Assembly: GCA_949290055.1 (NCBI GenBank)
Contig: CASEQJ010000001.1
Span: forward strand, 1 to 64,000
Length of the DNA: 64,000 nt
Source: an uncultured Olsenella sp.
Lineage (GTDB): Bacteria; Actinomycetota; Coriobacteriia; Coriobacteriales; Atopobiaceae
Reading direction: 5' to 3'
A program made the translations under genes and the position numbers. Positions 29,858-50,774 of the stretch are shown here, in pieces. Positions within the stretch are counted from its first letter, which is position 1. Each line of letters opens with the position of its first letter. The notes under the pieces are model-generated. The model had not been told where the DNA came from, ran no database searches, and saw nothing but the letters and a program-made list of their open reading frames with translations.

Positions 29858-29919
29858 GCGTAGCAGACCGAGAAACGCTACACTTGTCGCGTCTTTAGTA
29901 GCCCCGAGTTTGGAGTTCC

Positions 29920-32166: not shown

Positions 32167-32226
32167 GCGTTCTTCTCGCCCGCCCCTCGGGGGCATGTCC
32201 CCCTGTTTGAGCGCGATTCCTGCCAA

Positions 32227-34091: not shown

Positions 34092-37000
34092 CTAGAGAAA
34101 CGCCCTGCGGACGGCGTCGTAGCGCTCCCAGCTCGCAATGGAGCGCTCCACGCACACGCAGACAATGTGGTTGCACAGCACGCGCTCCTTCAGCCTGTCC
34201 GACCCAAGGCGGACGTAGTGCGCAAGGCTGTCCTTTGCCAGGCGCTTCCACTGGTCAAAGTCGCGGCGGTCGGCGGTGGTGACCGCGGCAGGGTCGACCT
34301 CGGGAAGGCGCTCGGCCAGCACCTCAAAGAGGTCGCCCGCCCCTATGAGCCGGGCCACCGTCATGCCAAACTTTTCCTCGTCGATCTTCTTCGAGCAGGC
34401 ATAGACCAGCGCCGAGATCATGCGCCGCATGGCCCGCTTGTTCGTCGCCGTGTCCTGGACCTGTCTGACCAGAACCTCAAAGGGCTGCACGGAGAGCTCG
34501 CCCTCGTCGTGCTGGCGGAAGAGCTCCTCCACGACGCGCCCCACGAGCTCGGCATGGCGTGCGGGGTCGTTGACCTTGGCGCTCGTCCGCTCGTAGAGCG
34601 CCTCGGCGCGGTTGACCTTCGTGAGCACCGGCTCGAGCCAGTCGTTCTGGTAGACGACCGCGCAGCCCATGGGCAGCTTCGCGATCTCCGCCAGCTGGTC
34701 CTCCGAGAGCCCCATGGACGCGCCCGCGGCGGTGCGGTCCTCGAGCTCGGGCAGCCTCATGACGATCTTGGTGTTGGTGTTTCGTATCGCCGACATGTCC
34801 ACCGCCGAGGGCGACTGGTCCACGATCAGGAACCCCTCGCCGTAGGTTCGCATCTCCGCAATCGAGTTTGAGATCATCTCCACCGACTTGCCCTGGACGT
34901 TGGAGCCCTCCTGGGACTGGTCGGTGGAGGTGCGCCGCAGCAGGTTGTGCGCCTCCTCGAGCACCGTGACGTGGCGAAGCGACGCGTTCGTGCCGCTGGA
35001 GGTGGCCTGGCGGTACTCGTTCAGCTGGAGGATCAGCGTGCCGGTAATGAGCGCCTTGGTCTCGGTCGAGCCAATGCGCGAGAGGTCGACGATCGTCCGC
35101 TGGTCAAAGAGGATCTCCGGCGTCACCGCCTCGCGCGTGAAGATCTGCCCCACCAGCCCGTTGGTGAGCGACTCCACGCGCGTGACGAGCGACCCAACGT
35201 AGTCGCCCTTCGTGTCGCCCGAGAACGCCGAGGAGGCGAGAAGCTCGGGCAAGATCCTGACGACGTCGGAGAAGGTCGGCCACCGGCCGTTGCCCAGGTT
35301 GACCCAGTAGGAGTTCGCCAGGTCCCAGCCGTGCAGAATGTAGGCGCGCTCGAAGGCCTTCTTGAGCAGCGCGGGCATGGCGGCGTAGAGCGGCCAGCAG
35401 GCGGAGAAGACCTCTATGATCCGGTCGAGGTGCTCGAGCACGTGAATCTCCTCGGGAAACGCGAAGGGGTTCACGTGCAGCATGTCGTTGTAGCGCGGGT
35501 TCGTCGTGAACACGTTCACGTCGGGGAGCCTGCCAAACGCCAGCTTGTACTCGCCCTTGGCGGGCTCGATCACAAGGAACGGGACGTCGTTCTTCTCGTC
35601 CGCCAGCTCGTTGAGGATCTGGTAGGTGGTGTTGGACTTGCCGGAGCCCGTCGAGCCCGTTATGAAGCAGTGCGCCGTCAGGGAGTCCACGTCAAGCAGG
35701 ACGGGTATGCTGGCGGACTCACGCCCCATGTAGCTCACCACGCCGAGCTCGATCGTGCGGCGCGGCGCCCCCTTGCCCGCCCGCAGGACGTTGCGGCCGA
35801 ACTCCGCGCTGGAGGTGGCCGTCACTCCGGAGACGGAGTGGCGCGGCAGCCCGAGCACGAGCGGGAGCTCCTCGCCCGAGACGAGCGTCGTGGGAGCCAC
35901 GTTCGGAAAACTCTTCGCGCGGTTGAGCGGCAGCTCGTGGACGAAGTTGGGCTGGCGCGCCTCCCGCAGGTACTCAAAGACCACCGAGAGACGCGAGAAG
36001 GACGGGCGGTCGTTGGGCCAGGTGTTGACATGGGCGGACTCGAGCTGGGAGTTCTCGCCCGAGACGAGCGCCTTGAACAGCGACGCCGCCATGATCGAAA
36101 TGTGCTCGAACCCCGCCACGAAGTAGCACCCGACCTCCCACACGCCGTAGGCCTCGCAGGCGGCAATGCGCTCGAGCTGCCGGTCGATCCGCTCGAGCAG
36201 CGCGGACACCGTCTTGTCCGTCTGCGTGATCGTCAGGGAGCGCGAGGAGCCGGTCGTCGTCGAGTCTGAGTGCGAGGTCCCGCTTCCGCGGGTCTCGGTA
36301 TCGTTTCGCGAGGTGGTGTGGCTCTCGTTGGTGCCGGACGTCTCCGTGCTCGTCGTCCCGGACGAGCCGCCCTTCGTCCCCTTTGACAGGAGGGTCTCGC
36401 GGTGGCGGTCCCGGCTCTTCGACCGGGCGAGGGAGCTGTCGGAGTGCGAGCCGGCCGTGTCCGAGAAGCCGTTCGAGATCGCCGCCGAGAAGGAGTCGTT
36501 GACGCCGTCAGTCACGCTCAGGCTCTCCTGCTCGGAGAGCTGGCGCTGCACCTCGCGGAACATGGAGAGCGAGGTCGAGAGCTCCTCGTAGGTCCTGCGA
36601 ATGAGGGAGAGTCGCTCGTCGTCGACCGGCGTCGCCAGCAGAAGCGCCGTGAACTCCTGGCCCGCCATGCCCTCTATGAACTTCTCGATTCCCTGGACGA
36701 AGCCGCCCTGCTCGCCCGAGTGCGAGGCGCGCTCGGAGGGGACCACGGTGACGGAGGTGAGCGAGCGACAGCGGTACTCGCTCGGGAAGGCCTCCTCCAT
36801 GAGGTGCTTGACCTCGTTCTTGGTGCAGGCGGCCATTTCGACGCCCGGGAAGTTCCCGCGCAGCGACGACTCGAAGATTCCCTCGGAGACGTGGCGGCGG
36901 TCGAACGAGGACTCCCGGGTCCCCAGGTAGAAGGAGACGCCGCCGCGCGTCCCGTGAATGACGAGCATGGCCGTGCTGCCGTATGCCGAGAGCGCCCCGT

Positions 37001-37241
37001 AGACGCTCACCAGCTTGTCGTTCACGTCCTCGCCCTTGAGATAGACGATCTTCTCAAGGCGGAAGAGCGCCATGTCCTCGTAGGGGTCCTCGTCCTCGAC
37101 GAAGGGCAGCGGCGTGGCTCGCGGGAGGTCGGCGAGGTAGCCTCGGTTCACGAGGGAGTCGACCGCGTCGAGGTTCTCGCGCAGCCGCCGCAGCCGATCG
37201 GCACTCTCCCGGTCGATCTTGCTCAGTGCCTTGGCCGCCAT
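34092..37241 (-). CDS. HerA/VirB4-like (DUF87-type) ATPase with Ser/Thr-rich linker
   Basis: 1049 residues. An N-terminal alpha/beta domain (1-230), an extreme Ser/Thr/Gly/Asp linker (about 264-336), then a FtsK/HerA-type motor. Walker A is GSTGSGKSN (529-537), FLVIEPAKGEYK is at 555-566, Walker B is VTVLEEAH (758-765), and a sensor DQSP is near 808. HerA-type ATPases form hexamers that translocate DNA or protein; together with conflict genes they often power a nuclease or secretion step. GGGAGG precedes the ATG, 3 nt after the GAP1-like gene. The low-complexity linker is unusual for this family. Confidence 0.88.
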   Translation of the reverse strand: MAAKALSKIDRESADRLRRLRENLDAVDSLVNRGYLADLPRATPLPFVEDEDPYEDMALFRLEKIVYLKGEDVNDKLVSVYGALSAYGSTAMLVIHGTRGGVSFYLGTRESSFDRRHVSEGIFESSLRGNFPGVEMAACTKNEVKHLMEEAFPSEYRCRSLTSVTVVPSERASHSGEQGGFVQGIEKFIEGMAGQEFTALLLATPVDDERLSLIRRTYEELSTSLSMFREVQRQLSEQESLSVTDGVNDSFSAAISNGFSDTAGSHSDSSLARSKSRDRHRETLLSKGTKGGSSGTTSTETSGTNESHTTSRNDTETRGSGTSHSDSTTTGSSRSLTITQTDKTVSALLERIDRQLERIAACEAYGVWEVGCYFVAGFEHISIMAASLFKALVSGENSQLESAHVNTWPNDRPSFSRLSVVFEYLREARQPNFVHELPLNRAKSFPNVAPTTLVSGEELPLVLGLPRHSVSGVTATSSAEFGRNVLRAGKGAPRRTIELGVVSYMGRESASIPVLLDVDSLTAHCFITGSTGSGKSNTTYQILNELADEKNDVPFLVIEPAKGEYKLAFGRLPDVNVFTTNPRYNDMLHVNPFAFPEEIHVLEHLDRIIEVFSACWPLYAAMPALLKKAFERAYILHGWDLANSYWVNLGNGRWPTFSDVVRILPELLASSAFSGDTKGDYVGSLVTRVESLTNGLVGQIFTREAVTPEILFDQRTIVDLSRIGSTETKALITGTLILQLNEYRQATSSGTNASLRHVTVLEEAHNLLRRTSTDQSQEGSNVQGKSVEMISNSIAEMRTYGEGFLIVDQSPSAVDMSAIRNTNTKIVMRLPELEDRTAAGASMGLSEDQLAEIAKLPMGCAVVYQNDWLEPVLTKVNRAEALYERTSAKVNDPARHAELVGRVVEELFRQHDEGELSVQPFEVLVRQVQDTATNKRAMRRMISALVYACSKKIDEEKFGMTVARLIGAGDLFEVLAERLPEVDPAAVTTADRRDFDQWKRLAKDSLAHYVRLGSDRLKERVLCNHIVCVCVERSIASWERYDAVRRAFL

Positions 37242-37244
37242 GCT

Positions 37245-39884
37245 CTACCTCCCGCCGAACAGCTTCTTGCCCAGACCGCTCAGGCCACGGCCCTCGTCGA
37301 CGCGCCTCAGCATGTTCCCCAGCAGGCTGCGGGCGTCCGGGTTCACCCTGAAGCCCTTGTCCTCGAGGTCCTTCGGGTCAAAGAAGCGCTGGGCCTCGGC
37401 GCGCACCGCGTCGCGGGCGTCCTTGCGAACCCGCATTGCGCGCTCCGCCACCTCCTCGCACACCTCAAGCGGGTAGAGCGAGGCCGTGCAGGCAAGCACG
37501 ATTCCCAGCGACTCGGCCCCGGTCAGGCGGCGCTTGAGCAGGTCGAGCGCGCGGTCCGCGCAGGCGCACAGGAGCACGCTCGCCTCCCGATTGGAGCTCG
37601 TGAGGTAGGAGGTGAGGTAGGCGAGGTAGCACGTGACGCGCGAGAGGTCGACGACGACCCCGGAAACGCCGACGAGAAACGCCTCGGTCTCCCCGGCGGA
37701 CAGCGGGTTGGCACGCAGGCGCGGCATGACGTGGTAGGCGTAGCTCACGGCGTCGTCCGGCCGGTTTGCGTTGCAGGAGCGGCGCAGCTGCGCGGACAGC
37801 ACGAGACGAAGCATTCGCGGACCCATGACCTCGTGGTGGGCGAGCGCTTCATACCCGAGGAGATAGCGCGACAGGCGCTCCTCGTCCGGGGTCGGGTTGA
37901 GCGGGTCGACGCCCCCCTCGAGCGCGAGCCCCGCCGCCCGCATGGCCTCGCCAAACTGCTCGCCGCAGAGCAGCTCGTCGTTCTCCGCGCCGTCGGCGAC
38001 CGAGGCGACGAAGGCCGTCAGGGCGCGCTCGCCGTCCCGGTCGCCGCGCGAGACAAGCTCGTCGACGTAGGCGCGGGCGACCGCGGGGTAGCACGCGGTC
38101 CCCATGGCGGCGTTCGAGAACAGGTCCCCCGAGCAGCACGCACGGTAGAGGGAGGCCACCTCGCGCGAGCTCGCCCGCTGGCTGGCCGCACGCGCGAAGA
38201 GCCGCGCGGCGCCCTCGTACTTCCCGCAGGAGCCGAGCCAGCGCATGAGCAGAAGCGTGGCGTCGTCGCTCGAAACGTCAGCGCCGTCGGCGAGCGCGTC
38301 CCACAGGGCCCGCAGGCAGGCCTCGTCGCCCGGACGGGCGGCGTCGCAGGCCTCGAGAGTCGCGTTGGCGACACGGACGTAGAGCTCGGCGACGTCGACG
38401 AACGGCTCGCTCACCAGTCGCGCGGCACGCAGCCCCTCCTGCGGACCAAAGCGGTACGCGGCCCCCACGAGGCTCCTCACCAGAGAGCTGACCGCGCCCC
38501 CGAGGTCGAGCTCGCTCGCCTCGCAGCCCCGGTCCATGACGGCCACCATGGTCGAGCCGCACAGCACGCAGAGCTTCTCGGCGCTCGAGGCGCTCTCCCC
38601 GAGCGCCACGCCACGCTCGCCGCCGAGTATGGAGAGCGGGTCGACGCCGGACTGCGCGCAGGAGCCCAGGATCTCGTCGAGCCGCGAGGAGAACTCCTCC
38701 TCCGAGACGGAGCGGTCGGAGATCAGGCCGGCGACCGTCGCACCGGCGACCTCCTCCACGCGCCGGCGGTTGTCCGAGCCGAGCGAGCGTCCCGCCCGGA
38801 GCAGGTAGCCGAGCGCGCCCAGAAGGATTGCGGGGCTGGCCCCCTCAAGCTGGTCGAGACCGTCCGTCAGGCGATTGGCGAGCTGCTCGCGCGTGGCCTC
38901 GTCGGCATGCGCCTCGGCGAAGGGCAGGGCGAGCGCGTAGGTCCCCTCGTCGTCGGGCAGGTCGTCGCGCAGCAGCGACCAGAGCTGAAACGCCGCCTCA
39001 AAGAGCCCCAGGTTGAAGCCAATGTCGCAGTGGTCGCCCACAAAAGCCGTGAAGTCGAGCAGCTTCGCGGGATTGAGCTCGAGCGACATGGTCACAAAGT
39101 CCAGGTAGTCGTCGGCGGGAACGTAGTCGGCGTCGGCGGGGGCGGCGGGGTCAAAGGTCACGCAGGACGCGAGCGCGTAGTCCTGGGCGCGCCCAAGGGC
39201 CTCTCGCGTGGTCCCGCAGGCGTCTCCGCCCACCAGGCCCGGCTGCTCGCAGGCGAGAAGGAACGACACCTCGCGGCTCATGCGCAGGGGAACCGCCAGG
39301 CACGCGGCCGCGAGCCAGCGGGCGGCCTCCTCGGGGTCCGCCACGATCACCAGCTGCTTGTCCTCGGTCTTCGCCCGGAAGAGTGAGGTGACCAGCTCGA
39401 GAAGGCGGTCGACGCGCTCGCCCTCGCCCAGCCAGTCGACAATGCGCTCGCAGGAGAGCTCGCCGGTCGGGCGAATGTCGACCGTCGGCAAATAGTCCGG
39501 CTTCTCGGGGCTCGCGACCTCGGGACCCATGGACGAGACGAACACCGGCGACCCAAAGGCCTCGACCGGGGCGAAGGTCAGCTCCTCGGCCGAGAGGAGC
39601 ACGGACTGACGCAGCACGTTGCCGCTTCTGCCCTGCGGGCCCTGGTAGTCGTAGGGAAGCTTGGTGTTGTAGGTGAAGAGGCACTTGTCGCCAAGCAGGT
39701 GGTAGCCGAGCGCCGGGCGGCCGACCTCGCTGGGGTCCGGGTCGGGAAAGAGCTGGGAGAAGCCGGAGCCGTACTCCGCCTTGCACGCGGCAAGCCCCTC
39801 GTCATAGGAGAAGACCTGGAGGCCGTCCGAGACGCCGTCCATGCCCCGGCGGCAGGAGGTGTATATGACCTGGTGCGCCCGCAT
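37245..39884 (-). CDS. GAP1-like (GTPase-associated protein 1) large protein
   Basis: 879 residues from ATG at 39884, with AAGGAG 11 nt upstream. The N-terminus reads AHQVIYTSCRRGMDGVSDGL, and LPYDYQGPQGRSGN and VYVRVANATLEA-like helical repeats follow later. The opening matches, from memory, the GAP1 N-terminal domain type 1 (IYTS...G...GFQV). The rest is helical and repeat-like with no catalytic motif. GAP1 proteins are defined by co-occurrence with paired GTPases in predicted conflict systems. Here the gene lies 5 nt after a zinc-ribbon GTPase gene, as expected. A scaffold or GTPase-regulating role is inferred. Confidence 0.72.
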   Translation of the reverse strand: MRAHQVIYTSCRRGMDGVSDGLQVFSYDEGLAACKAEYGSGFSQLFPDPDPSEVGRPALGYHLLGDKCLFTYNTKLPYDYQGPQGRSGNVLRQSVLLSAEELTFAPVEAFGSPVFVSSMGPEVASPEKPDYLPTVDIRPTGELSCERIVDWLGEGERVDRLLELVTSLFRAKTEDKQLVIVADPEEAARWLAAACLAVPLRMSREVSFLLACEQPGLVGGDACGTTREALGRAQDYALASCVTFDPAAPADADYVPADDYLDFVTMSLELNPAKLLDFTAFVGDHCDIGFNLGLFEAAFQLWSLLRDDLPDDEGTYALALPFAEAHADEATREQLANRLTDGLDQLEGASPAILLGALGYLLRAGRSLGSDNRRRVEEVAGATVAGLISDRSVSEEEFSSRLDEILGSCAQSGVDPLSILGGERGVALGESASSAEKLCVLCGSTMVAVMDRGCEASELDLGGAVSSLVRSLVGAAYRFGPQEGLRAARLVSEPFVDVAELYVRVANATLEACDAARPGDEACLRALWDALADGADVSSDDATLLLMRWLGSCGKYEGAARLFARAASQRASSREVASLYRACCSGDLFSNAAMGTACYPAVARAYVDELVSRGDRDGERALTAFVASVADGAENDELLCGEQFGEAMRAAGLALEGGVDPLNPTPDEERLSRYLLGYEALAHHEVMGPRMLRLVLSAQLRRSCNANRPDDAVSYAYHVMPRLRANPLSAGETEAFLVGVSGVVVDLSRVTCYLAYLTSYLTSSNREASVLLCACADRALDLLKRRLTGAESLGIVLACTASLYPLEVCEEVAERAMRVRKDARDAVRAEAQRFFDPKDLEDKGFRVNPDARSLLGNMLRRVDEGRGLSGLGKKLFGGR

Positions 39885-39889
39885 GGCGA

Positions 39890-41125
39890 TCACTGCTCCT
39901 TCGTCACGAGGCCGTAGCGCGACATGAGCCACAGCAGCGGGTCCTCGACGCGGTGGGGTCGCGGCCGGCGGACGTTGCCGTCGGTGTCCGGCGCGTTCCC
40001 CAGGCCCAGGCTCGAGACCGCGAAGAACGAGACGTCCTTGAAGTTGCCGCGAATGTCGGTGATCAGGGCGCCCTCGCCCCAGTTCTCGAGCAGCGTCCGC
40101 ATTTCGGCGTCCACGGCCTGCTGGTCGCCCTCGACGAACGCCCCGTGCGCGCAGTGCGGGCTCGGCTGCTGGATCGTGAGGGCGTCGCCGGCAATGGGCA
40201 GCAGCGCGTCGAACTTGGGGAAGGTGACGGCGACCGGAATGTCGATCGCGGCGCCCTGCTTTATGCCGCGCGCGTTGCGAATCAGCGTCGTGACGTTGGC
40301 AAGGACGCTCGAGAAGGTCTTGGTGCTCTCGACGCCGGCGAGACTCGTGAGCGCACCGCCGGTCTCCGCCTCGAGCTGGGCGCGAACGCTCGGGATCTGC
40401 AGGGGGTCGGCGAGGAAGATAATCCCCTTGGAGTGGCGAAGGTAGCCGCCGACCGTCGCAATGTCCTCCTCGTTCTGCAGGTCCTCGCCTGCGGCGTCGA
40501 AGAAGGAGAGCGTGAAGGACTTCTTGCGCCCAAAGCTGTGGTCAAGGTAGTTCCAAATGTAGATCAGCGGAATCTTGTCGTTCTCGCGCACGCCACTGAC
40601 GTCGCTTCTGGTGAGCTCGAGCAGCTTCTGGTCCTCGTAGAGCGGCCGGTACTTCGTTTCCTGGTAGAGGCTCTCCACGTCGTAGCCGCCGCTGCCCAGC
40701 GACACGAAGTTGCGGATCTCGGCGCCCATGGAGTGGCCCACCCGCTTGCGGAGCTCGTCGATCAAAACCGCAATGTAGTGGCTCTTGCCCGAGCCGCGCG
40801 TGCCGACGACCGAGATTATGTTGTCGGTCCCCGTGAGCGTGGACTCGGGAAGGGGGTTGTGGCAGTGGGGGCAAATGGGCTTGGGCGTATGGTCGTGGCA
40901 GACGTCGCAGGAGACGTCCGAGGAGCGGCCGAACAGCGAGCGGGAGGTGGGCTTGAAGACGTGGCCGAGCCCCTGGTCGCGCGGCCAGCGCATGTACTGG
41001 GAGTAGAGGTGGTCCGGCTCGGCCGCGGAGGGGCAGCGCTTGTTCACGCAGCGGTACTCTATGCTGCCGCGCTCGACCTCCTGGAAGCAGAACGGGCAGA
41101 CGATCTTGTTGAACAGGGTAATCAT
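39890..41125 (-). CDS. Zinc-ribbon GTPase (DO-GTPase-like), soluble
   Basis: 411 residues. Two N-terminal zinc ribbons (C10, C13, C26, C31 and C73, C76, C85, C88) precede a GTPase domain. G1 is GTRGSGKS (108-115), G3 is DAAGE (210-214), and a degenerate G4 is PKFD (303-306). These resemble the double-GTPase families found with GAP1. GAGGAGG precedes the ATG. It lies between the FN3 protein and GAP1-like genes. The zinc ribbons suggest a docking or nucleic-acid sensing role that would control the GTP cycle; this is inference. Confidence 0.8.
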   Translation of the reverse strand: MITLFNKIVCPFCFQEVERGSIEYRCVNKRCPSAAEPDHLYSQYMRWPRDQGLGHVFKPTSRSLFGRSSDVSCDVCHDHTPKPICPHCHNPLPESTLTGTDNIISVVGTRGSGKSHYIAVLIDELRKRVGHSMGAEIRNFVSLGSGGYDVESLYQETKYRPLYEDQKLLELTRSDVSGVRENDKIPLIYIWNYLDHSFGRKKSFTLSFFDAAGEDLQNEEDIATVGGYLRHSKGIIFLADPLQIPSVRAQLEAETGGALTSLAGVESTKTFSSVLANVTTLIRNARGIKQGAAIDIPVAVTFPKFDALLPIAGDALTIQQPSPHCAHGAFVEGDQQAVDAEMRTLLENWGEGALITDIRGNFKDVSFFAVSSLGLGNAPDTDGNVRRPRPHRVEDPLLWLMSRYGLVTKEQ

Positions 41126-41149: not shown

Positions 41150-44100
41150 CTAGGCGCGGTAGCCGCAGCTCGACATGAAGCTCGGGGTCGGGCCGCTTGC
41201 GGGATACGCCTCGACGTTCAGGTTCTTCTGCTTGGGGAGCTCGACCGTGTAGGAGTAGGACCCCCTGGCCTCGACCGGGCCGAACGTGGCGAGCGTCGCC
41301 GCGTCGGGCGCCATGTGCGGAACGCGACCGACGCAGCAGGCAATGCGAACCTCCGGCAGGGTGAAGACCGCGGAGCCCTCGGCCGACCTGAACGTGAACG
41401 TGGCGCTCGGCCTGCCGATCAGCGGACGCGAGACCGAGAACGTGTAGACGATCTTGCCGCGCGGGGTCTGGTTGACCTCGACCTGGGCGGGATCGGAGAA
41501 GACGAAGTCGCCCGGGGCTCCGGAGCGGGCGAAGACCGTGACGCAGAGGTGGTCGCCCTTGGCCCCGGGAACGGTGAGGCGGCCGTCGCGCCGCCACTGC
41601 TTGACCGGTACGAGCTTGCGCAGCACGCCCGGCTCGTCGGACTCGAGGTCGTCCACGAAGCGGCTCTCGCTGACAAGGACCATGAAGCCGTTGACGCCCG
41701 GGTCCTTGCAGTCGACGTCAATGCTCAGGGCGCCGTTGAGCACGCTCGCCTCGCGAATCTTCACCGCGCCGCCCGTGGCAATGCGCGCCCGCGCGCCCAC
41801 GACCGCCGAGCCACCGTACACGCCGACCACGAACGCGTGGACCGAGCGCTCGTCGCGCCACGAGAGCGTGCCCAGACCGTCGCTGCGGCTGTCCACGGGC
41901 AGAATCTCAAAGTCGCGTTCGAGCTCGTCGAGGGTGAGGGCGCTTCCTTCGGCGGGGACGTCCTCGCGCCGCTCGGCGGCGAAGAAGCGCACCGGCGCCC
42001 CCGTGCCCTCCCAGGTCAGCTCGTAGCTGCCCTCGCCCGTCGAGCGGGCGTGGAGGTGGGTGGGGTAGGTCGTCACGTCGAGCGGCGTGGCGGAGCAGCG
42101 CGCGGAGGCGCCGCGCGCCTCGGCGGCGCCGGAAACGCGGTAGGCGACGTCCACGACGAACGTGTAGGTCACCCCGTCGCTCAGGCCCTCGAGGACGCAG
42201 CTGTGGGGGCCGTGAAGCTCCCGAGGGGGCACCGCGCCCGAGGCCTCGCTGACCCGGACGTGGGCGGACTCGGGCAGGGGCCTCCAGCTCAGCTCGACGC
42301 GCCCGTGGCTCGGAACGGCGCGCAGCCCCTCGACGCCCGGGGCAACGACCACCGGCGCAGAGCCCGGCGAGGGGCGCGAGGAGACCTCGCCGCGGTGGGT
42401 GACGACGCGATAGTGGCAGGGACGGCCCACCGGGGCGGACTCGTGGACGAACGTGGTCGACTTCGTCGTGCCGAGCGAGCGCTCGCCAAGACCGCCCTCC
42501 TCCTGGAGCAGGACCTCGTAGACGAGGGCGCCCTTCGAGCGGCTCCGCTGCCACGAGACGTGCACGGAGCCCTTTGACTGGTCGGCGACCGCCCGCACGC
42601 TCGAGGCGGGAAGGGGCGGGTGCGCGGCAAGGAAGCTGAGGGCGGACGGGTGGTCCGCGCAGAGGGCCAGCGCCTGGGCGCAGAGCTCGGCGGCGTCCTC
42701 GGGGTCGGCGGAAGCACCTGCCCGGCGCACGACCTCGTCGGCCTCCTCGACGTAGCGCGAGACTCGACGCTCCTGTCCGGCGAGGTGGACCCCGTCGAAG
42801 CCGGGCATGGACTGCGCGCGGCGCAGGGCGTCGCGCGCCGCGACGAAGCGGCTCTCGGCAAGCGAGGAGGCGAGCTCCTTGGCGAGCGGCCCCGCTACGC
42901 CCTCGAGGCGCTCCACCTCGCGGCGGGTGCCGGCGAGGGTGGGCAGCGCGGGCCAGCTCCTCGACGCCTCCTCGAGGCACTGGCGCGCGCCCGCGAAGTC
43001 AAGGCGCGTCGCCTGTCGCCGCGCCTGCTCGCACAGGGAGCTCGCCTCGTCCAGGGCGAGGCCGAGCGGGGTGCCGCACTTGGGGCAGCGGTCCTCCGTG
43101 TTGGGGCTCTTGGTGTGGCAGCCCGGGCACTCCACCACGAGCGGCAGGCCGCAGCGCGAGCACACGGCGGCGCCCTTCTCGTTCACGTGGCCGCAGCGGC
43201 ACACGGTCTTGGAGGAGATCTCCGCGTCGCGCTCGAGCGCTATGCCCTTCTCCTGGCAGTAGCCCACCAGCAGCGGGCGCGCGTCCGCCTTCGTGTCAAC
43301 GAGAAGCGCGAGGCGCTCGATTGCCTCGCGCTGCGAGGCGACGCTCAGCGTCTTGTTGCTCAGGCCGGCAATGTCGGCAAACTCCTGCAGCGCCTCCTTG
43401 AGCGCCTTGCGCCTCAGGTAGGCGTCGTAGCCCTTGCGCGACTCGTCGCTCGCGAACGCCTTGCGGCACAGCGCCTCGAGCGAGGACGCCGCGGCGTCCT
43501 CCGCCGTGTTTCTCCGCTGACGGGCCTTCAGCGCCTGGGCGGCGGCGACCAGGTCGGCGTTGGAGGCCCGACGCGGGTCGCCGACGCCCTCCGGCTGGGC
43601 AAAGTCATAGAGCGTGGCGGCGTCGAACAGCGGGAGGTCCTTGTCCGCCGAGTTGTAGCTCCTCTCCTCCGGCAGCCTGGTCTTGCAGTACTTCTCGTAG
43701 GCGTCGACGGCCTTCTGGTCCGTCTCCGCCGCGGGCTTGTCCCAGGAGAGGCCGAGGTGCTGGGCCCGCCGCTCCACCAGCGCCTCGTCGAGCGAGTAGT
43801 CGATCACGCCGGTCTTCTTGCGAACCTGCTTGTTGACGAACTTGGCGATCTGCTCCCTCCCGGAGGCGATCGTCCCGTCCTCGTCGCTCGCCGTCTTGAG
43901 CGCTCCGTCCAGCTCTCCGTACACGACCGTCGCGGCCTCACGCGCAAACTCCGCCACGTGGGCGGAGTCCGCCAGGGCCTCCTTGATCTCGGCGTAGTGC
44001 TCGCTCAGCTGCTTGTAGTAGTTTGCGTTGTCGCCTCTCGCCGACTTGCTCCCCCACTCCCCGGAGAACTTGCTCTCGAGCAGCTCGAGACAGGTCCGCG

Positions 44101-44161
44101 AGTCCGGCACGGGGTCGAACGGGGCCCCGATCGCAAGCAGCCAGTTGCTTCCCTTTGGCAT
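41150..44161 (-). CDS. Zinc-ribbon and FN3 repeat protein with J-like helical N-terminus
   Basis: 1003 residues. The N-terminal 75 residues (SKFSGEWGSKSARGDNANYY, then KQLSEHYAEIKEALAD) have the helical look of J-like domains found beside Hsp70 genes, but no HPD triplet is present. Residues 321-362 hold two zinc ribbons (CRC...CSRC and CPGC...CPKC). A helical TPR-like stretch follows (370-520), then about three FN3-like beta domains (530-760) and a beta-rich C-terminus (to 1003). It precedes the soluble GTPase gene by 24 nt. It could be the J-type adaptor or substrate receptor of the chaperone pair. No enzyme motif. Confidence 0.72.
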   Translation of the reverse strand: MPKGSNWLLAIGAPFDPVPDSRTCLELLESKFSGEWGSKSARGDNANYYKQLSEHYAEIKEALADSAHVAEFAREAATVVYGELDGALKTASDEDGTIASGREQIAKFVNKQVRKKTGVIDYSLDEALVERRAQHLGLSWDKPAAETDQKAVDAYEKYCKTRLPEERSYNSADKDLPLFDAATLYDFAQPEGVGDPRRASNADLVAAAQALKARQRRNTAEDAAASSLEALCRKAFASDESRKGYDAYLRRKALKEALQEFADIAGLSNKTLSVASQREAIERLALLVDTKADARPLLVGYCQEKGIALERDAEISSKTVCRCGHVNEKGAAVCSRCGLPLVVECPGCHTKSPNTEDRCPKCGTPLGLALDEASSLCEQARRQATRLDFAGARQCLEEASRSWPALPTLAGTRREVERLEGVAGPLAKELASSLAESRFVAARDALRRAQSMPGFDGVHLAGQERRVSRYVEEADEVVRRAGASADPEDAAELCAQALALCADHPSALSFLAAHPPLPASSVRAVADQSKGSVHVSWQRSRSKGALVYEVLLQEEGGLGERSLGTTKSTTFVHESAPVGRPCHYRVVTHRGEVSSRPSPGSAPVVVAPGVEGLRAVPSHGRVELSWRPLPESAHVRVSEASGAVPPRELHGPHSCVLEGLSDGVTYTFVVDVAYRVSGAAEARGASARCSATPLDVTTYPTHLHARSTGEGSYELTWEGTGAPVRFFAAERREDVPAEGSALTLDELERDFEILPVDSRSDGLGTLSWRDERSVHAFVVGVYGGSAVVGARARIATGGAVKIREASVLNGALSIDVDCKDPGVNGFMVLVSESRFVDDLESDEPGVLRKLVPVKQWRRDGRLTVPGAKGDHLCVTVFARSGAPGDFVFSDPAQVEVNQTPRGKIVYTFSVSRPLIGRPSATFTFRSAEGSAVFTLPEVRIACCVGRVPHMAPDAATLATFGPVEARGSYSYTVELPKQKNLNVEAYPASGPTPSFMSSCGYRA

Positions 44162-44170
44162 GAGCTCCCC

Positions 44171-46288
44171 CTAGAGCCGAATCTCGGAACCGCTGGCGAT
44201 CGACCTGCCGATCGTGGAGAACGTCTCCCCAAGCTGGGAGAAGTCGAAGAGGCCCGCGTAGCTGTCGGAGGTGGATATGCTCCGCAGGAACTCCGGGTCC
44301 GCATAGGCGACGCCAATACCTATGATCATGACGTTCTCTTTCCTGAGCTCCTGCGAAATCTGCTGCGCCTCCTGGCAGGCGGGCATGCTCCACACGCCGT
44401 CGGTGAGGAGCAGCAGACAGTTTGCCATGGAGCGCTTGTACCTCTCTTGGCCGGAGTACCAGTCGCTGTAGTTTCTGAGCGGGTCGTTCGTGTTGCCACC
44501 GCCGAGGTTAGCCTCTCTCAGAACCTCTGGGTCGGAGCAGGCGAGCAGCTTCTCCGGGCCGGTCCCCACCTCCGCAATAATCTCAGCCCTGTCGGAGAAG
44601 CACATGAGCCCCACCTCGACCGGGGCCCCCTCGATCGAGGAGAGGAAGCCCCTCACTGCCTCGTGGGCAGCTTCGAACCCCCGCCCATACATGGACCCCG
44701 AGGTGTCTATGGCGATCATGACCCGCATGGGCGCGCACGCAGGCTCGGAGGCCTCGTTCTCGAGGGGCGAGCGGTCAAAGCGCGAGAGGTCGCCCTCGAC
44801 CTCGGCGCGCTCCACCGTGAGCTCGCGGCCGAGCGCGGGCTGGTCGGCACTCACCTCGATCGTCGCGTTCTCCGTGTAGGAGTAGGTCACGCGGACCTTC
44901 GCGTCGCCCTGCTCGCGCTCAATGCCGGTGACCACGTACTTGCCGACCACGTCGTTGTCGAGGGGACGGGGCTCGGAGCCCTGGAGGACGTAGACCTCGA
45001 GCCGTCCCGTTCCCCATGCGGGAACGGGAATGAGGTACTCGCGGGACTCCGAGGCGGGAACGGTCGCGTTCTTGGGAATGATCGTCGAGTTCACGTAGCG
45101 GGAGCGGTCGGGGCTCTCGGCGATCATGCCCATGGGGTGCGCGGTGCAGTCCACGAGCCGCGGGGCGGAGCCGCCCAGAAGGAAGCGCGGGGAGTCCCCC
45201 TCGGCCTCCGCGAGCTGGCTCGCGTAGATCGCGGCACCCAGGGCGACCGCCTCGTCGGGGTTCACCCCGCCGAGCGGCGGCCGGCCGGTCTGCTCCTCGA
45301 GGTAGGCAGCGACCTGCGGCATGCGCGTGGAGCCACCTATGAGCACCACGCCGTCCAGGTCAGCCCAGGCAAGCGGACGACCCAGGGACTCGGCGGCCTC
45401 GGCGATCGTCTCCTCGCAGAGGTCCGTCGTCATGGTCAGGAGGTGCGCGGTCGCCTCTTCGAACTCCCGGCGCGCGACCTCGACCGTCCCGGTGGCCCCG
45501 GCGACCGAGACCCGCGCCCTTGTGCGCGGCCGGGCGGAGAGCTCGCGCTTAGTCCGCTCGGAGAGCACGGCGAGGGTGCCTAGATCGGAAAGCGACAGGT
45601 CCAGGTCCCCGCGGTCCATGTCGAGCCCCTCGCAGAGGCCCTCGAGAAGCATGTCGGTGAGTATGGCGTCCCAGTCGCGGCCCCCGAGGTGGTGGTTCCC
45701 GTTCGAGGCGAGGACGTGGATCTCGTCGGCCGAGATGCGGGCGACGGTCACGTCGAACGTGCCGCCGCCGAGGTCGTAGATCAGCACCGTCCGGTCCGCT
45801 CCGGCGCCGGTGAGGCCGTAGGCGTAGGCCGCCGCCGAGGGCTCGTTCAGGACCCCGAGCACGCGCACGCCGGTGCGACGCAGCGCCTCCTGGGTCGCCT
45901 CGCGCTGCGTGGCGCCGAAGTAGGCCGGGACCGTGACCACGGCCGCGTCGATCTCGACACCGTTGGCGGCGGAGACGTCGGCGAGCAGGTTGCGCAGGAA
46001 TATGGCGGAGAGATCGGTCGCGTCGAACGCCATGTTCTGGAGCCGCTCGACGTAGGTCGACTCCCCCATGCTCCGCTTGTAGAACGAGGCGGCGTTGGCG
46101 TCGCCCATGAGCTGGCTCTCCTTGGCCTCGTCGCCCCAGAGAATGCTCCCGTCCTCGCGGACGGCAACGACCGAGGGCGTCGTCGTCTCACCGCTCGAGT
46201 TCGGCAGAATGTGGGGCCTGCCGTCCTCACCCACGCGCGCCACGGCGCTGAACGTGGTTCCCAGATCAATTCCGACAACGATTCCCAT
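44171..46288 (-). CDS. Hsp70-vWA fusion protein
   Basis: 705 residues. A nucleotide-binding Hsp70 domain (1-375) has DLGTT (8-12), DLGGGTFD (about 177) and IGGSTRMPQV. A shortened beta substrate-binding region (about 380-500) follows. The normal helical lid is replaced by a von Willebrand A domain (about 520-700) with an intact MIDAS: DTSGSM, GGNTND and LLLTDG. A vWA domain binds a protein ligand through Mg2+, so the fusion would couple ATP-driven chaperone action to ligand capture. GGGAGGA precedes the ATG; it lies between the DnaK and FN3 protein genes in the operon. Confidence 0.9.
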   Translation of the reverse strand: MGIVVGIDLGTTFSAVARVGEDGRPHILPNSSGETTTPSVVAVREDGSILWGDEAKESQLMGDANAASFYKRSMGESTYVERLQNMAFDATDLSAIFLRNLLADVSAANGVEIDAAVVTVPAYFGATQREATQEALRRTGVRVLGVLNEPSAAAYAYGLTGAGADRTVLIYDLGGGTFDVTVARISADEIHVLASNGNHHLGGRDWDAILTDMLLEGLCEGLDMDRGDLDLSLSDLGTLAVLSERTKRELSARPRTRARVSVAGATGTVEVARREFEEATAHLLTMTTDLCEETIAEAAESLGRPLAWADLDGVVLIGGSTRMPQVAAYLEEQTGRPPLGGVNPDEAVALGAAIYASQLAEAEGDSPRFLLGGSAPRLVDCTAHPMGMIAESPDRSRYVNSTIIPKNATVPASESREYLIPVPAWGTGRLEVYVLQGSEPRPLDNDVVGKYVVTGIEREQGDAKVRVTYSYTENATIEVSADQPALGRELTVERAEVEGDLSRFDRSPLENEASEPACAPMRVMIAIDTSGSMYGRGFEAAHEAVRGFLSSIEGAPVEVGLMCFSDRAEIIAEVGTGPEKLLACSDPEVLREANLGGGNTNDPLRNYSDWYSGQERYKRSMANCLLLLTDGVWSMPACQEAQQISQELRKENVMIIGIGVAYADPEFLRSISTSDSYAGLFDFSQLGETFSTIGRSIASGSEIRL

Positions 46289-46328: not shown

Positions 46329-48035
46329 TTACACCATCATCGTCATGGCGGTGATCGCCTCGCGCGCCTCCTGGATCTGCTCGGAGCTGAGGCCGCCGGT
46401 CACGACGAGCTGAATGTTGCACTGCTTGCCCGAGCTAGGCTCCACGGCCGTGACGTCGAGCATGCCCTCCTCGCTCAGGACGAACGTGACGTCGATCGGG
46501 GAGCCGGCGGGGAGGTTCGTGCCGGTAAGGTCGATCTGGGCGGAGCCGAGCGGGTCGCGGTCAATGTCGACGACGTCCTGCTCGAAGTCGTTCTCGTAGA
46601 CCTGCAGGAGCACCGAGGTCTGCCCGTCGGCCACCGTGCCAAACCTCCTGGTGACCTCATAGGCGCCGAGACTGTGGTCAATGCGCTGGTTCTTGAGAAT
46701 GAGGTTGTTGACCTTCAGCACGTTGTCGGCAGAGTCGATCGCCTCGACGCCGTAGCTCTTCGAGGTGACCGTCTGGATCACGATGGCGTTGGCCGCCGTG
46801 TCGGCGTCCACGAAGTGCGTGGCAATGTTGTTCTCGCCCACCACGCGCTGGCGCTCGACGGTGTTGGTCTCCTGGTCGACGACGTCGACGAAGGCCTCCT
46901 CCTCGTTGCCGCCCTCGGCGGAGGCGACGTTGATCTGCGCCTGAATGCCGGCCGCGAGCTGCAGGGCGTAGCGGACCGCGCCCTTGGCGACGGCCTCGTC
47001 GGGCTCGTTCTTCTCGAGCGGAACGCCCGGGAACTCCTCGGCGAGCCTGCGCTCGACCTGCGGCATCTTCGTCGAGCCGCCCACGAGGAGAATGCGCTGG
47101 GCTTCCACGCCCTTGGACTTGGCGTTGTCAATGCAGGCGTGCATTATGCTCATGGTGCGGTCGAGCTCGGCGAGGGTCATGTCGTCGAACTCCTCGGCGG
47201 TGAGGGTGATCTTGACCGGCTTGCCCGTGAGGTTGAGGACCGCGGACGCCTTGGGCTTCTGCGAGAGGGCGATCTTGAGCTTCTCGGCCTCGCTCTGGAA
47301 GGTCTGCATGGCGTACTCGTCGAAGTCGTCGTCAAAGCCGGCCTGCTCGCGGAACTCGTCCTGGAGGAAGCTCATGACGCGCGCGTCCCAGTCGCCGCCG
47401 CCGAGGTTCTTGTCGCCGTCGTTGCAGACGACGTCAATGTGGGTGGTGCCGTCGGCGTCGTGGGAGATCTCGACGACCGAGGCGTCAAAGGTGCCGCCGC
47501 CGAGATCGAACACGGCGACGACCTCGTCCTTGTCCGTGCGGTCGCAGCCGTAGTTGATCGCCGCCGCCACGGGCTCCTGCAGCAGGCCGTAGACGTTGAG
47601 GCCGGCAATCTCGGCCGCGGCGAGGGTGGCCTTCTTCTCGGCGTCGCCGAAGTAGGCGGGCACCGTGATCACGCAGCCGTCAAAGCGCATGGGCATGAGG
47701 GCCTGGGCGTCGCCGGCGACCTTCTTGAGGACGAACGCGGAGATCTCCTCGGGAGAGTAGGTCTTCCCGTCGACCGTGATCGCGACGGGGTTGACGCCGA
47801 TTATGCGCTTCACGAAGGACGCCGTGCGGTCGGGGTCGATCAGCGCATTGTCCTTGGCGACCTGGCCCGCGTCCCAGATCGTGGGGTCGTCGAGGTCGAA
47901 GTGGACGACGGAGGGCGTGGTGCGCTCGCCCTCGCGGTTGGGCTGGACGACCGGCTCGCCGTTCTCGTTTGCGTAGGCAATGCAGGAGTAGGTCGTGCCG
48001 AGGTCAATGCCGACGACGGTGGTCATGTCGTTCAT
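46329..48035 (-). CDS. DnaK-like Hsp70 chaperone, short form
   Basis: 568 residues from ATG at 48035 (MNDMTTVVGIDLGTTYSCIA), preceded by AAAGGAAC. The ATPase domain has DLGGGTFDASVVEIS and LLVGGSTKMPQV. The substrate-binding beta domain is present and the C-terminal lid is short, so it is smaller than housekeeping DnaK (about 610-640). It sits next to a GrpE-like gene but without a canonical dnaJ. It is probably an operon-specific paralog rather than the cell's main DnaK. Confidence 0.88.
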   Translation of the reverse strand: MNDMTTVVGIDLGTTYSCIAYANENGEPVVQPNREGERTTPSVVHFDLDDPTIWDAGQVAKDNALIDPDRTASFVKRIIGVNPVAITVDGKTYSPEEISAFVLKKVAGDAQALMPMRFDGCVITVPAYFGDAEKKATLAAAEIAGLNVYGLLQEPVAAAINYGCDRTDKDEVVAVFDLGGGTFDASVVEISHDADGTTHIDVVCNDGDKNLGGGDWDARVMSFLQDEFREQAGFDDDFDEYAMQTFQSEAEKLKIALSQKPKASAVLNLTGKPVKITLTAEEFDDMTLAELDRTMSIMHACIDNAKSKGVEAQRILLVGGSTKMPQVERRLAEEFPGVPLEKNEPDEAVAKGAVRYALQLAAGIQAQINVASAEGGNEEEAFVDVVDQETNTVERQRVVGENNIATHFVDADTAANAIVIQTVTSKSYGVEAIDSADNVLKVNNLILKNQRIDHSLGAYEVTRRFGTVADGQTSVLLQVYENDFEQDVVDIDRDPLGSAQIDLTGTNLPAGSPIDVTFVLSEEGMLDVTAVEPSSGKQCNIQLVVTGGLSSEQIQEAREAITAMTMMV

Positions 48036-48065
48036 GGGTGGGTTCCTTTCCACGTGGGGGCAGGG

Positions 48066-48848
48066 CTAGGCCTGCGCGCCCTCCTTGTAGCCGTACACCT
48101 TGACGCTCGCCTGGGAGATCACGCTCCCGTTGAGCTCGTAGCCCTGCGAGAGGACCTCCGCCACCCTTTGGTGGAGCGAGCGGTCCCCGGTCGTCACCCT
48201 GCTCACCACGCGGTGGCGGCCGCTCTCAAAGCGGTCCCCAACCTCAGGAGAGAACGGGCGGACGGAGTAGTCCTCCAGAAGCTCCACGAGCATGTCGCGG
48301 TAGGTCTCAAAGTCCTCGAGGCCAACGCTGGCGTCGGGGTCGTCCTGCGAGCGCGCGTAGGTGACCGTCGTGCCCATCTTGTCCGCGACGTCGACCACCT
48401 TGAGCAGCAGCGGGGTCATGATCTTGTCGTAGACCCCCGCGCGGTAGCGCTCGATCTCCTCGGTCTGGTTCTTGAGGGTGGCCGTCTCGAACTCGTTGCG
48501 GTCGATCTTCTTCTTGAAGAGCTCCCTCATGGCGCCAAGCTCGCCGAGAAGCGCCTCGCGCAGGTCACCCACCGCCTCGAGGACGGGGTCCGCGCCGGCG
48601 TCCTCGGTCGGCTCCGGGGCGTCCTCGGCCGGCTCCTCGGCGCTCGCGTCCTTCTCGCCCGCGGGCTCCGCCGCCGGCTCGCCTTCCTCCTCGGGGGCCT
48701 CGACGGGCTCCTCGGGCTCGGCTGCGGCCTCCTCGGGGGCCGCTGCGGGCGCCTCCTCGGTCACCTCGGCCTTGACGGGCTCGACCGGCTCAACGGGCTC
48801 CTCACGCTTGGGGATTGGGGGCGGCGCCGCCCACTCGTCGTCGTACAT
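48066..48848 (-). CDS. GrpE-like nucleotide-exchange factor with long acidic N-terminus
   Basis: 260 residues. Residues 1-90 are Pro/Ala/Glu repeats. A coiled-coil follows, then the GrpE beta domain: VLSQGYELNGSVISQASVKV matches the GrpE C-terminal signature (GY.L...vi.pA.V.V). GrpE releases ADP from Hsp70. It lies between the membrane GTPase and DnaK genes, 30 nt before the latter, so it probably serves both Hsp70s of the operon. A GTCCTTCTCGCC copy occurs inside the repeat. Confidence 0.85.
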   Translation of the reverse strand: MYDDEWAAPPPIPKREEPVEPVEPVKAEVTEEAPAAAPEEAAAEPEEPVEAPEEEGEPAAEPAGEKDASAEEPAEDAPEPTEDAGADPVLEAVGDLREALLGELGAMRELFKKKIDRNEFETATLKNQTEEIERYRAGVYDKIMTPLLLKVVDVADKMGTTVTYARSQDDPDASVGLEDFETYRDMLVELLEDYSVRPFSPEVGDRFESGRHRVVSRVTTGDRSLHQRVAEVLSQGYELNGSVISQASVKVYGYKEGAQA

Positions 48849-48850
48849 GG

Positions 48851-50530
48851 CTACTCCTCACCACTCTCGCGTGCGTTCTTCTCTGCCTCGCGCTCCTGGG
48901 CGCGCCTCTCGGCCTCGTCCCTGCGCTCCTGGGCCTGGCGCTCGGCCGCGTTTCTCTTCTCGCGACGCGGGTCGATCGCAAACGGCACCGCCCCCGCGTG
49001 GTCCACGAGGCCGCCGCCGAACCCGAGCGCCCTGGTGAGCGCCCGGTCGGAGCGCGCGAGAATCCATGAGAACGGCTCGTCAACGTGAACGGGCGCAAAG
49101 CTCCCGGCAAGGCGCTCGTGGCCGATCGCGCTCACGACGAACAGCCGCTGCGCCTTGAAGTTGCCCTGCAGCATGTTCAGGAAGTTCCCCATGCCGTGAC
49201 GTTCGAGGAAGGCGCGCGCGAGGGCGTCGTCCACGTCGTAGTCGGGGCAGGCCGGGTTGGCCTGGAGGTAGGCCTCGCGCGCCCGCTCGTCAAAGTAGGG
49301 CGCGAGTCCCGGCAGGTCGGCCTTGCTCAGCACGACCGCAAGGGGAAGGGAGATCTGCTCGCCCTGGCCGACGCCGCTCACCTGACGGATCTTCTCGACG
49401 AAGTTCGAGAGGACCGTGTCGGGGTACTCGCGCGCCGTGACGGCCGAGTCCGCCGAGGAGAGGCGCTCGGAGAGCTCGTCCGAGACCTCGGGAATGCTCA
49501 TGGGGTCAACGAGGAAGATCGCGCCCGTCGCATAGGCGTACTGCAGCTGCGTCTCGTGCTCCTCGCCCTTGAGGAAGGTCTCGCCGGCAACGTCGTAGAC
49601 GTGCAGGAGGCGCTGGGGCGAAAGCCCGCGCTTCCTGACGAAGAAGCTCAGGGAGAACGCGCTCGGCCGGTTGAGGTCGGTCGCCTCGCGCGTCATCTCG
49701 GTCGAGCCGCTCCGGTAGCAGTCCTCGAGCTCCCGGTACAGCTTCCGCTTCTCCGCGTCCAGAAACTCGGTCTCGTACCCACGCGACTCCGGGAGCTCGT
49801 CAAGGAGCAGGTGCGACAGGGCGGCTATGTAGGTGGTCTTGCCCACCGAGCGGCTGCCGACGACCGAGACGCTCAGGGTGCGCGCGTCTCCCGTCGAGAC
49901 CTGACGCGCGCACGCGGGGTTGGGGCAGCGCTGCTCGAGCATGGAGCGGCGGGCGCGCTTGCCCGAGGAATCCTTCACGGTCGAGAAGAACGTCGCGGGC
50001 ATGAGCTGGCCGCAGGTGCAGCGGTGGAAGAAGATTCCGAAGGTGTTGGGGCGCAGGTAGCTGTGAACCCGCCCGCAGCTGGGGCACACGTAGCCCGGCT
50101 GCAGGTATATGTTCTTGCAACGGTCGCACGCATAGGTCACGTGCAGGATTGAGCGGTAGGCGCCGTCGAGGGCCTTGGCGATCCAGAGCAGCACGTACAC
50201 GATCGTCATGACGACGAGGATCACGAGGGAGTGCACGAACGAGAGGACGACGGTGACCAGCGTGCCAAACACCAGAATCGACAGAATGCCAAAGAGGTAG
50301 AAGATCGTGTAGACCAGCTTCATGAGGAGGAACTTGTCCGACGCCCAGACCAGCCCCATTCTTCCGGAGAGGTCGCTCATCGCCACCCGGTCACCCATGA
50401 ACGACTCGCGAATGGTCGCGCCCAGGTCAACAAAGCCCTTGTCGAGCCAGTAGTTCCTCGTGGAGGGCTCCTCCGGGAGCAGCTCGGCGCTGCGCGCGTA
50501 CTGCTGTGCGGTCAGCGAGCGAATTCTCAT
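48851..50530 (-). CDS. Membrane-anchored zinc-ribbon GTPase (DO-GTPase-like)
   Basis: 559 residues. The ATG at 50530 was chosen for GGGAGGTGA. Order: cytoplasmic N-terminus, two transmembrane helices (about 68-118), a zinc-ribbon array (C135, C138, C149, C152; C171, C173; C202, C207), then a GTPase with G1 GSRSVGKTT (225-233), G3 DVAGE (about 316) and G4 SKADL (about 405). A highly charged C-terminal tail (EKRNAAERQAQERRDEAERR) ends it. It is paired in the operon with the soluble GTPase but is membrane-bound, so the system probably acts or senses at the inner membrane. Confidence 0.82.
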   Translation of the reverse strand: MRIRSLTAQQYARSAELLPEEPSTRNYWLDKGFVDLGATIRESFMGDRVAMSDLSGRMGLVWASDKFLLMKLVYTIFYLFGILSILVFGTLVTVVLSFVHSLVILVVMTIVYVLLWIAKALDGAYRSILHVTYACDRCKNIYLQPGYVCPSCGRVHSYLRPNTFGIFFHRCTCGQLMPATFFSTVKDSSGKRARRSMLEQRCPNPACARQVSTGDARTLSVSVVGSRSVGKTTYIAALSHLLLDELPESRGYETEFLDAEKRKLYRELEDCYRSGSTEMTREATDLNRPSAFSLSFFVRKRGLSPQRLLHVYDVAGETFLKGEEHETQLQYAYATGAIFLVDPMSIPEVSDELSERLSSADSAVTAREYPDTVLSNFVEKIRQVSGVGQGEQISLPLAVVLSKADLPGLAPYFDERAREAYLQANPACPDYDVDDALARAFLERHGMGNFLNMLQGNFKAQRLFVVSAIGHERLAGSFAPVHVDEPFSWILARSDRALTRALGFGGGLVDHAGAVPFAIDPRREKRNAAERQAQERRDEAERRAQEREAEKNARESGEE

Positions 50531-50555
50531 GCGTGTCACCTCCCTCGGTACGCGG

Positions 50556-50774
50556 CTACGAGCGGCGGTTCGACGTGATCGTATGCTTGCTGAAAGCCCT
50601 CGCATAGCTCGTGATCGCCATGGCGGCGCCGTATATCACCGCGAGGAGCACCGTAATCGCAAAAATCGCCGTCGCGGAGGCGACCACCGCGGGAATCACG
50701 TACGGGATTATGATCGCGGTGATAACCCAGTAGATGAACCAGATTACGAGTATGGCAATAACCAGATATCCCAT
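50556..50774 (-). CDS. Small two-helix membrane protein
   Basis: 72 residues, two hydrophobic helices (about 2-30 and 33-55) and a basic C-terminus. GAGGAG precedes the ATG. It is the second gene of the operon, 25 nt before the membrane GTPase, and may be a membrane partner of it. Family not recognised. Confidence 0.75.
   Translation of the reverse strand: MGYLVIAILVIWFIYWVITAIIIPYVIPAVVASATAIFAITVLLAVIYGAAMAITSYARAFSKHTITSNRRS

Follow-up and report, generated by a model that had tools for sequence, protein, structure and literature searches.

HPD-less tandem J-like domains in the candidate Hsp70-docking receptor of a GAP1-N2 operon from an uncultured Olsenella sp.

J domains normally switch on Hsp70 chaperones. 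The aspartate of their HPD motif draws R167 of DnaK away from D393 and D481, and DnaK R167H suppresses DnaJ D35N, according to the accessible text of PMC7289447. Pam16 lacks HPD and is described as forming a stable complex with Pam18 (PMC13254874, accessible text). GTPase-centred conflict systems with GAP1 were described in 2020 (eLife 2020;9:e52696; PMC7159879), and the accessible text of that paper reports HSP70 and GrpE in approximately 14% of GAP1-N2 neighbourhoods, a second HSP70 without the peptide-binding domain in a subset of these, and, for the FNIII protein of this HSP70/GrpE theme, a DnaJ domain or TPRs as the typical fusion partner. The words HPD, J-domain, and Coriobact are absent from the main text of PMC7159879, and the loss of DnaK-R167 is unmentioned in the portion of its text consulted. 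A literature search, conducted mostly outside subscription journals, found no closer work on the combination of FNIII, DnaJ, and HSP70.

We analyzed a stretch of 64,000 nucleotides (the window; contig CASEQJ010000001.1, positions 1 to 64,000) from an uncultured Olsenella sp. and identified a locus that is a member of the GAP1-N2 system with the HSP70/GrpE theme. What is new is the absence of HPD across the family of its FNIII-repeat protein, a putative receptor and hereafter called the receptor, together with the absence of DnaK-R167 across the operon Hsp70s.

Operon and domain layout of the receptor

Seven core genes were identified on one strand, in the transcription order membrane-type double-GTPase, GrpE, Hsp70A, Hsp70-VWA, receptor, second double-GTPase, and GAP1:

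48851..50605, minus strand: double-GTPase (DO-GTPase2) with hydrophobic segments (Pfam 47.6 bits; hydrophobic stretch by eye)
48066..48848, minus strand: GrpE (Pfam GrpE 57.9 bits)
46329..48053, minus strand: Hsp70A without lid, Gly at the DnaK-167 site (Pfam and alignment)
44171..46288, minus strand: Hsp70-VWA, an Hsp70 NBD and SBD-beta-like region with VWA replacing the lid, Gly at the DnaK-167 site
41150..44161, minus strand: receptor with 2 HPD-less J-like domains, double zinc ribbon, TPR-like stretch, FN3, and conserved C-terminal domain
39890..41125, minus strand: second double-GTPase (DO-GTPase2; Pfam 29.5 bits)
37245..39932, minus strand: GAP1 with N2 and M domains (Pfam GAP1-M 41.6 bits, GAP1-N2 23.4)

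The locus thereby has the double-GTPase genes, the GAP1 with N2 and M domains, and the HSP70 and GrpE genes of the published theme. The DO-GTPase2 Pfam scores of both double-GTPases were above the cut-off, as was that of GAP1-M, and GAP1-N2 scored 23.4 against a cut-off of 24 in the window scan and 27.8 in the genome search. Where the theme has FNIII fused to DnaJ or TPRs, the receptor has FN3 and an HPD-less J-like fold, with the TPR signal being weak. The subset trait of a second HSP70 without the peptide-binding domain was not found, with Hsp70-VWA covering positions 1-518 of the 599 of Pfam HSP70.

Downstream, a HerA-like ATPase (Pfam DUF87, 54.8 bits; 34092-37241) begins four bases past GAP1, and the operon strand also carries a 461-aa ORF weakly matching an HD domain (32692-34077) and a 782-aa ORF with no Pfam match (29878-32226). 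All 3 were considered as parts of the system and left out of the core because tblastn at E 1e-4 found no match to them in the fetched surroundings of the six other carriers; the HerA-like ATPase, not being found in those six loci, is perhaps a locus-specific effector.

The receptor ORF starts with ATG and encodes 1003 aa, with the following parts:

43877..44161, minus strand: J-like domain 1, residues 1-95 (fold evidence only, sequence signal absent)
43742..43873, minus strand: small beta-alpha-alpha-beta unit after J-like 1, residues ~97-140 (model secondary structure)
43388..43633, minus strand: J-like domain 2, residues ~177-258 (fold and sequence evidence)
43229..43357, minus strand: small beta-alpha-alpha-beta unit after J-like 2, residues ~269-311 (model secondary structure)
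43073..43201, minus strand: double zinc ribbon, residues 321-363 (Pfam DZR 29.2 bits, above cut-off)
42626..43066, minus strand: helical, weakly TPR-like stretch, residues 366-512 (Pfam TPR_14 E 0.08, below cut-off)
42062..42640, minus strand: two FN3 domains, residues 508-608 and 604-700 (Pfam fn3)
41153..41794, minus strand: conserved C-terminal domain, residues ~790-1003 (fused to an Hsp70 domain in G491)

The first-pass annotation had read this gene as a J-like, HPD-less N-terminus followed by two zinc ribbons and about three FN3-type domains. The zinc ribbons were recovered as Pfam DZR at 321-363, and the estimate of FN3 domains holds for two (508-608 and 604-700), the remaining C-terminal pieces being unclassified, with no Pfam match in three pieces covering residues ~694-1003. 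A single FN3 stretch (residues 622-675) passed the Pfam cut-off in the whole-protein scan, and residues 508-608 and 604-700, scanned as separate pieces, gave weak fn3 matches (E 0.013 and 0.0062). J-like 2 and the weakly TPR-like stretch had been overlooked. Pfam DnaJ (PF00226) was unmatched in the whole receptor scan and was not among the families listed for the 5 and 4 receptor members scanned at E up to 10. Further, the zinc-finger domain of DnaJ itself was not detected in the receptor by the Pfam scan, and PADLOC left the receptor unmatched at E 0.01.

Relatives of the receptor

We gathered relatives at seven loci, namely the window's own genome (G000) and G213, G062, G791, G739, G290, and G323. 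Full-length receptor relatives were identified in G062 (29% identity) and, by tblastn, in G213 (42.8%) and G791 (28.7%), and all seven core genes are present, with the gene order conserved, in 4 of the 7 loci (G000, G213, G062, and G791). G739 and G290, the latter spread over two contigs, have all core genes except the membrane-type GTPase, and the receptors of G290 and G739 are short (578 and 592 aa, respectively), with both J-like domains and the C-terminal region kept and the middle missing, which suggests that the receptor core consists of these retained parts. In G323, we identified GrpE, a copy of Hsp70A whose frame is broken, and, encoded directly behind these two, a protein (L014 8309-11202) with a zinc ribbon, a hydrophobic segment, and J-like 2 alone; neither GTPase nor GAP1 was matched within the 18.7 kb read. 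An Hsp70 without a substrate-binding domain was considered for G323 and dropped, since tblastn placed the missing part downstream in another frame.

The profile of the receptor N-terminus matched 5 of 296 genomes of the class, its own included, and among 396 genomes of the phylum its own genome alone. The profile of residues 174-312 matched 7 of 396 genomes in the class, including G044 in part. In the families of G290 and G213, it matched 4 of 138 and 1 of 65 genomes, respectively. Carriers include Candidatus Aphodovivens avistercoris and a Coriobacteriales bacterium from sheep duodenum. From these profile searches and the carriers found, the receptor family looks confined to Coriobacteriia at the search sensitivity used. 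No receptor relatives were found in viral contigs or in plasmids, and GAP1 had no plasmid match.

Several other matches were set aside. Two Rhodococcus plasmids were matched by the GTPase alone, and their surroundings resemble the tubulin kind by eye, as does G254. On both Rhodococcus plasmids, the megaplasmids L067 and L068, a tubulin-like GTPase system adjoins genes that look TerD-type by eye. A weak match in G057 had housekeeping neighbours and was dropped. The partial match in G044 is a different J-like/TPR protein (L057 7859-9214, minus strand) and was excluded from the seven; it has a DnaJ-like start (Pfam DnaJ 17.7 bits, below the cut-off; HPD absent by eye), TPRs, and hydrophobic segments, with an FtsK/EssC-like ATPase nearby. 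G433 has GTPase and FN3-like genes, and Hsp70 was unmatched in the stretches fetched.

J-like domains and their Hsp70 partners

AlphaFold2 modelled residues 1-95 alone (five sequences; pLDDT 84.1) with helices at 7-10, 21-39, 46-54/56-63, and 66-93, and residues 1-316 (four sequences; pLDDT 86.6) with helices I, II, III, and IV and then the small beta-alpha-alpha-beta unit, an order seen twice. The four-helix J fold is present in prediction for both residues 1-95 and residues 177-258. In a Foldseek search of the PDB with the model of residues 1-95, J domains or HscB accounted for 9 of 17 matches, none of them significant (all E > 2), with a best TM of 0.62 by target length (the DnaJ J domain of 5nro); as the DnaJ profile finds only 76 J-domain sequences among the 177,635 distinct sequences of the PDB, this is a large enrichment. 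VIA-align placed J domains or HscB in all of rows 1-9 (Z 4.3-6.2, rmsd 3.3-6.3, up to 74 of 74 residues aligned). The model thus superposes on J domains, the outcome on which the first-pass annotation had made its N-terminal assignment depend, and that assignment of a J-like, HPD-less N-terminus is borne out at the level of predicted fold, with Z values that are modest for a helical domain. With the whole 316-residue model, Foldseek gave no J domain among 24 matches, and the top VIA-align row was a DnaJ domain (Z 5.4, rmsd 4.3, 73 aligned) at model residues 177-258.

At the sequence level, the J-like 2 profile ranked DnaJ chains first in the PDB (E 0.078 to 0.2, singly not significant), with 4 of 7 matches belonging to the DnaJ family by name or sequence. 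Profile-profile comparison (hhalign) of J-like 2 with 33 DnaJ J domains scored 27.1 over 56 columns, which none of 150 column shuffles reached; the score of a helical stretch from these proteins, used as a control, was reached by 5 of 150. The score of J-like 1 against the same 33 domains was reached by 49 of 150 shuffles (20 of 60 in another run), and we therefore do not regard J-like 1 as a J domain that sequence comparison can detect. By the structure matches and the shuffle comparison, J-like 2 has both fold and sequence support and J-like 1 fold support only. Internal duplication of the two domains, hinted at by the repeated helix order alone in the 316-residue model, was set aside as weak (2 of 150 shuffles reached the score; probability 0.6% in a separate comparison).

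The N-terminal helical units might merely resemble J domains and mediate receptor dimerisation or contact with the GTPases and GAP1 rather than with Hsp70, as would suit the missing sequence signal of J-like 1, the Foldseek result on the 316-residue model, and the modest Z values. However, J domains and HscB hold ranks 1-9 for J-like 1 by itself, J-like 2 has a sequence signal, and the units stay in tight linkage with the genes for Hsp70 and GrpE, even in G323, where no GTPase gene was matched, and we consider mere resemblance quite unlikely.

None of the six J-like 1 domains and none of the seven J-like 2 domains of the receptor family has HPD, and the motif was not found within the N-terminal 330 residues of the seven receptors. 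In J-like 1, the tryptophan before the loop is kept in 5 of 6 rows, and the residues after it are unrelated. In J-like 2, Asn or Asp stands at or adjoining the position of the HPD Asp in all seven (by eye, the alignment register being our own reading), and His and Pro of HPD are together kept in none.

DnaK-R167 is absent in 13 of 13 operon Hsp70s, and all six housekeeping Hsp70s readable at this site, one each from E. coli, G000, G213, and G062 and a pair from G739, have Arg; housekeeping copies of G323 and G290, broken or cut at the 167 site, were left out, and the G791 copy is not in the count. Aligned to E. coli DnaK, the seven operon Hsp70A have Gly, Ser, or Asn at this site and the six Hsp70-VWA Gly throughout, with the G791 residue read by eye from the tblastn alignment. 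The three complete Hsp70A rows lack D393 and D481 as well; in Hsp70-VWA, D393 is kept and Asn stands in place of D481 in 4 of 5 rows. The checked ATPase residues (DnaK 8, 10-12, 70, 171, 194, and 199) are kept in 9 of 9 operon Hsp70 rows aligned, which suggests that the operon Hsp70s are probably live ATPases. Hsp70A has no lid, since it ends 18-19 residues past DnaK 507 in the three complete rows, and a VWA domain occupies the lid position in 5 of 5 Hsp70-VWA proteins aligned (window 44171-46288 and four others).

These residues also bear on the idea that J-like 2 is a re-tuned J domain still stimulating its Hsp70s, with the HPD Asp changed to Asn (or kept) and the Hsp70 arginine co-changed, as in the pair R167H/D35N. 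The Asn or Asp in all seven J-like 2 domains and the published suppression (PMC7289447, accessible text) speak for it, but the fact that no J-like 2 keeps both His and Pro, the change of the Hsp70 residue to Gly, Ser, or Asn and not His, and the additional loss of D393 and D481 from Hsp70A make re-tuning unlikely.

Hsp70 docking and comparison with known systems

The distant actinomycete G491 encodes a fusion in which a low-complexity linker joins an Hsp70 domain (Pfam 44.6 bits) to a receptor-type C-terminal domain (L107 15375-17411, minus strand; 37.2 bits against the receptor C-terminal profile, with seven target proteins searched), and this fusion gene directly precedes GTPase and GAP1 genes. 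A pattern search of the 28 kb fetched around it showed no HPD-type J domain. Its Hsp70 apparently keeps Arg at the 167 site (by eye), and the losses of Arg and of HPD are therefore not strictly tied. Most simply, the fusion would mean that receptor and Hsp70 act as one unit in G491 and, by analogy, that the J-like pair of Coriobacteriia would achieve by docking what the fusion achieves there; the fused C-terminal domain supports this docking reading.

We propose, at a probability of about 0.55, that the receptor is the FNIII-repeat component of a GAP1-N2 system whose HPD-less tandem J-like domains dock two divergent Hsp70s without the HPD-Arg switch. The two J-like domains would serve as docking modules tethering both Hsp70s to the receptor, the operon GrpE would recharge both, and the zinc ribbons, FN3, and C-terminal domain would face the target and the GTPase-GAP1 complex. 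ATP hydrolysis might be triggered by a contact other than HPD-Arg167 or be slow and intrinsic, and the Hsp70 nucleotide state may gate assembly or effector release rather than ordinary folding. More tentatively, co-chaperone and chaperones may have jointly abandoned the HPD-Arg switch, with the receptor docking the lidless Hsp70 and Hsp70-VWA and with the nucleotide state, through GrpE and coupling to the double-GTPases, controlling assembly and not client folding. The predicted J folds, the absence of HPD and of DnaK-R167, the kept ATPase residues, the conserved gene order, the G323 locus, where J-like 2 adjoins Hsp70A and GrpE without GTPase genes, and the G491 fusion speak for the docking proposal; the missing sequence signal of J-like 1, Foldseek matches that are singly not significant and, for the 316-residue model, include no J domain, the Arg that the G491 Hsp70 apparently keeps, and relatives numbering only seven speak against it.

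The genome has three canonical DnaJ matches elsewhere, and the pseudo-J domains could instead act like Pam16, binding and restraining a host HPD-bearing DnaJ and thereby supplying the receptor with housekeeping DnaK or J function, for which the stable Pam16-Pam18 complex (PMC13254874, accessible text) offers a model. The operon, however, has its own Hsp70s and GrpE, and these Hsp70s lack the residue through which an HPD protein acts, which makes such a regulator improbable. The same DnaJ matches and the missing Hsp70 arginine qualify the earlier suggestion that the protein may be a substrate receptor replacing DnaJ: an HPD-less J-like protein with zinc ribbons and FN3 is indeed encoded directly after two Hsp70 genes and GrpE, but a like-for-like replacement it probably is not. 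Since the operon Hsp70s lack the HPD contact, replacing DnaJ would mean docking without the canonical switch.

The locus suggests a chaperone-based sensing system of a gut-type bacterium working without the usual Hsp70 switch, and its purpose is presumed, from the published class, to be defence or envelope-stress sensing. Within a single compact bacterial operon, neither the HPD motif nor its contact residue in Hsp70 is present, and a related system fuses a receptor-type domain to Hsp70. The operon allows a direct test of whether a J fold can serve purely to dock Hsp70, and it offers a first mechanistic entry to HSP70-type GAP1-N2 systems.

Measured against a canonical J-domain protein, the receptor shares the J fold in prediction and lacks HPD, a Pfam DnaJ match, and an R167-bearing partner Hsp70 (0 of 13). 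As in DnaK-DnaJ-GrpE, there are an Hsp70, a GrpE, and a J-like protein carrying zinc-binding and beta-rich parts, whereas HPD, R167, and the Hsp70 lid are missing and GTPases and GAP1 are added. The accessible text of PMC7159879 describes the same set for the GAP1-N2 HSP70/GrpE theme, with two double-GTPases, GAP1-N2, HSP70, GrpE, and an FNIII-repeat protein; unlike the systems described there, this one has two J-like domains, both HPD-less, and a second HSP70 with VWA replacing the lid. With Pam16/Tim16 and other pseudo-J proteins, as portrayed in the accessible text of PMC13254874, the receptor has in common a J fold without HPD in an Hsp70 setting. Pam16 is paired with an HPD-bearing J protein and a normal Hsp70, whereas the Hsp70s of this operon lack the HPD-contact residue, and here two pseudo-J domains stand in tandem within a multidomain receptor.
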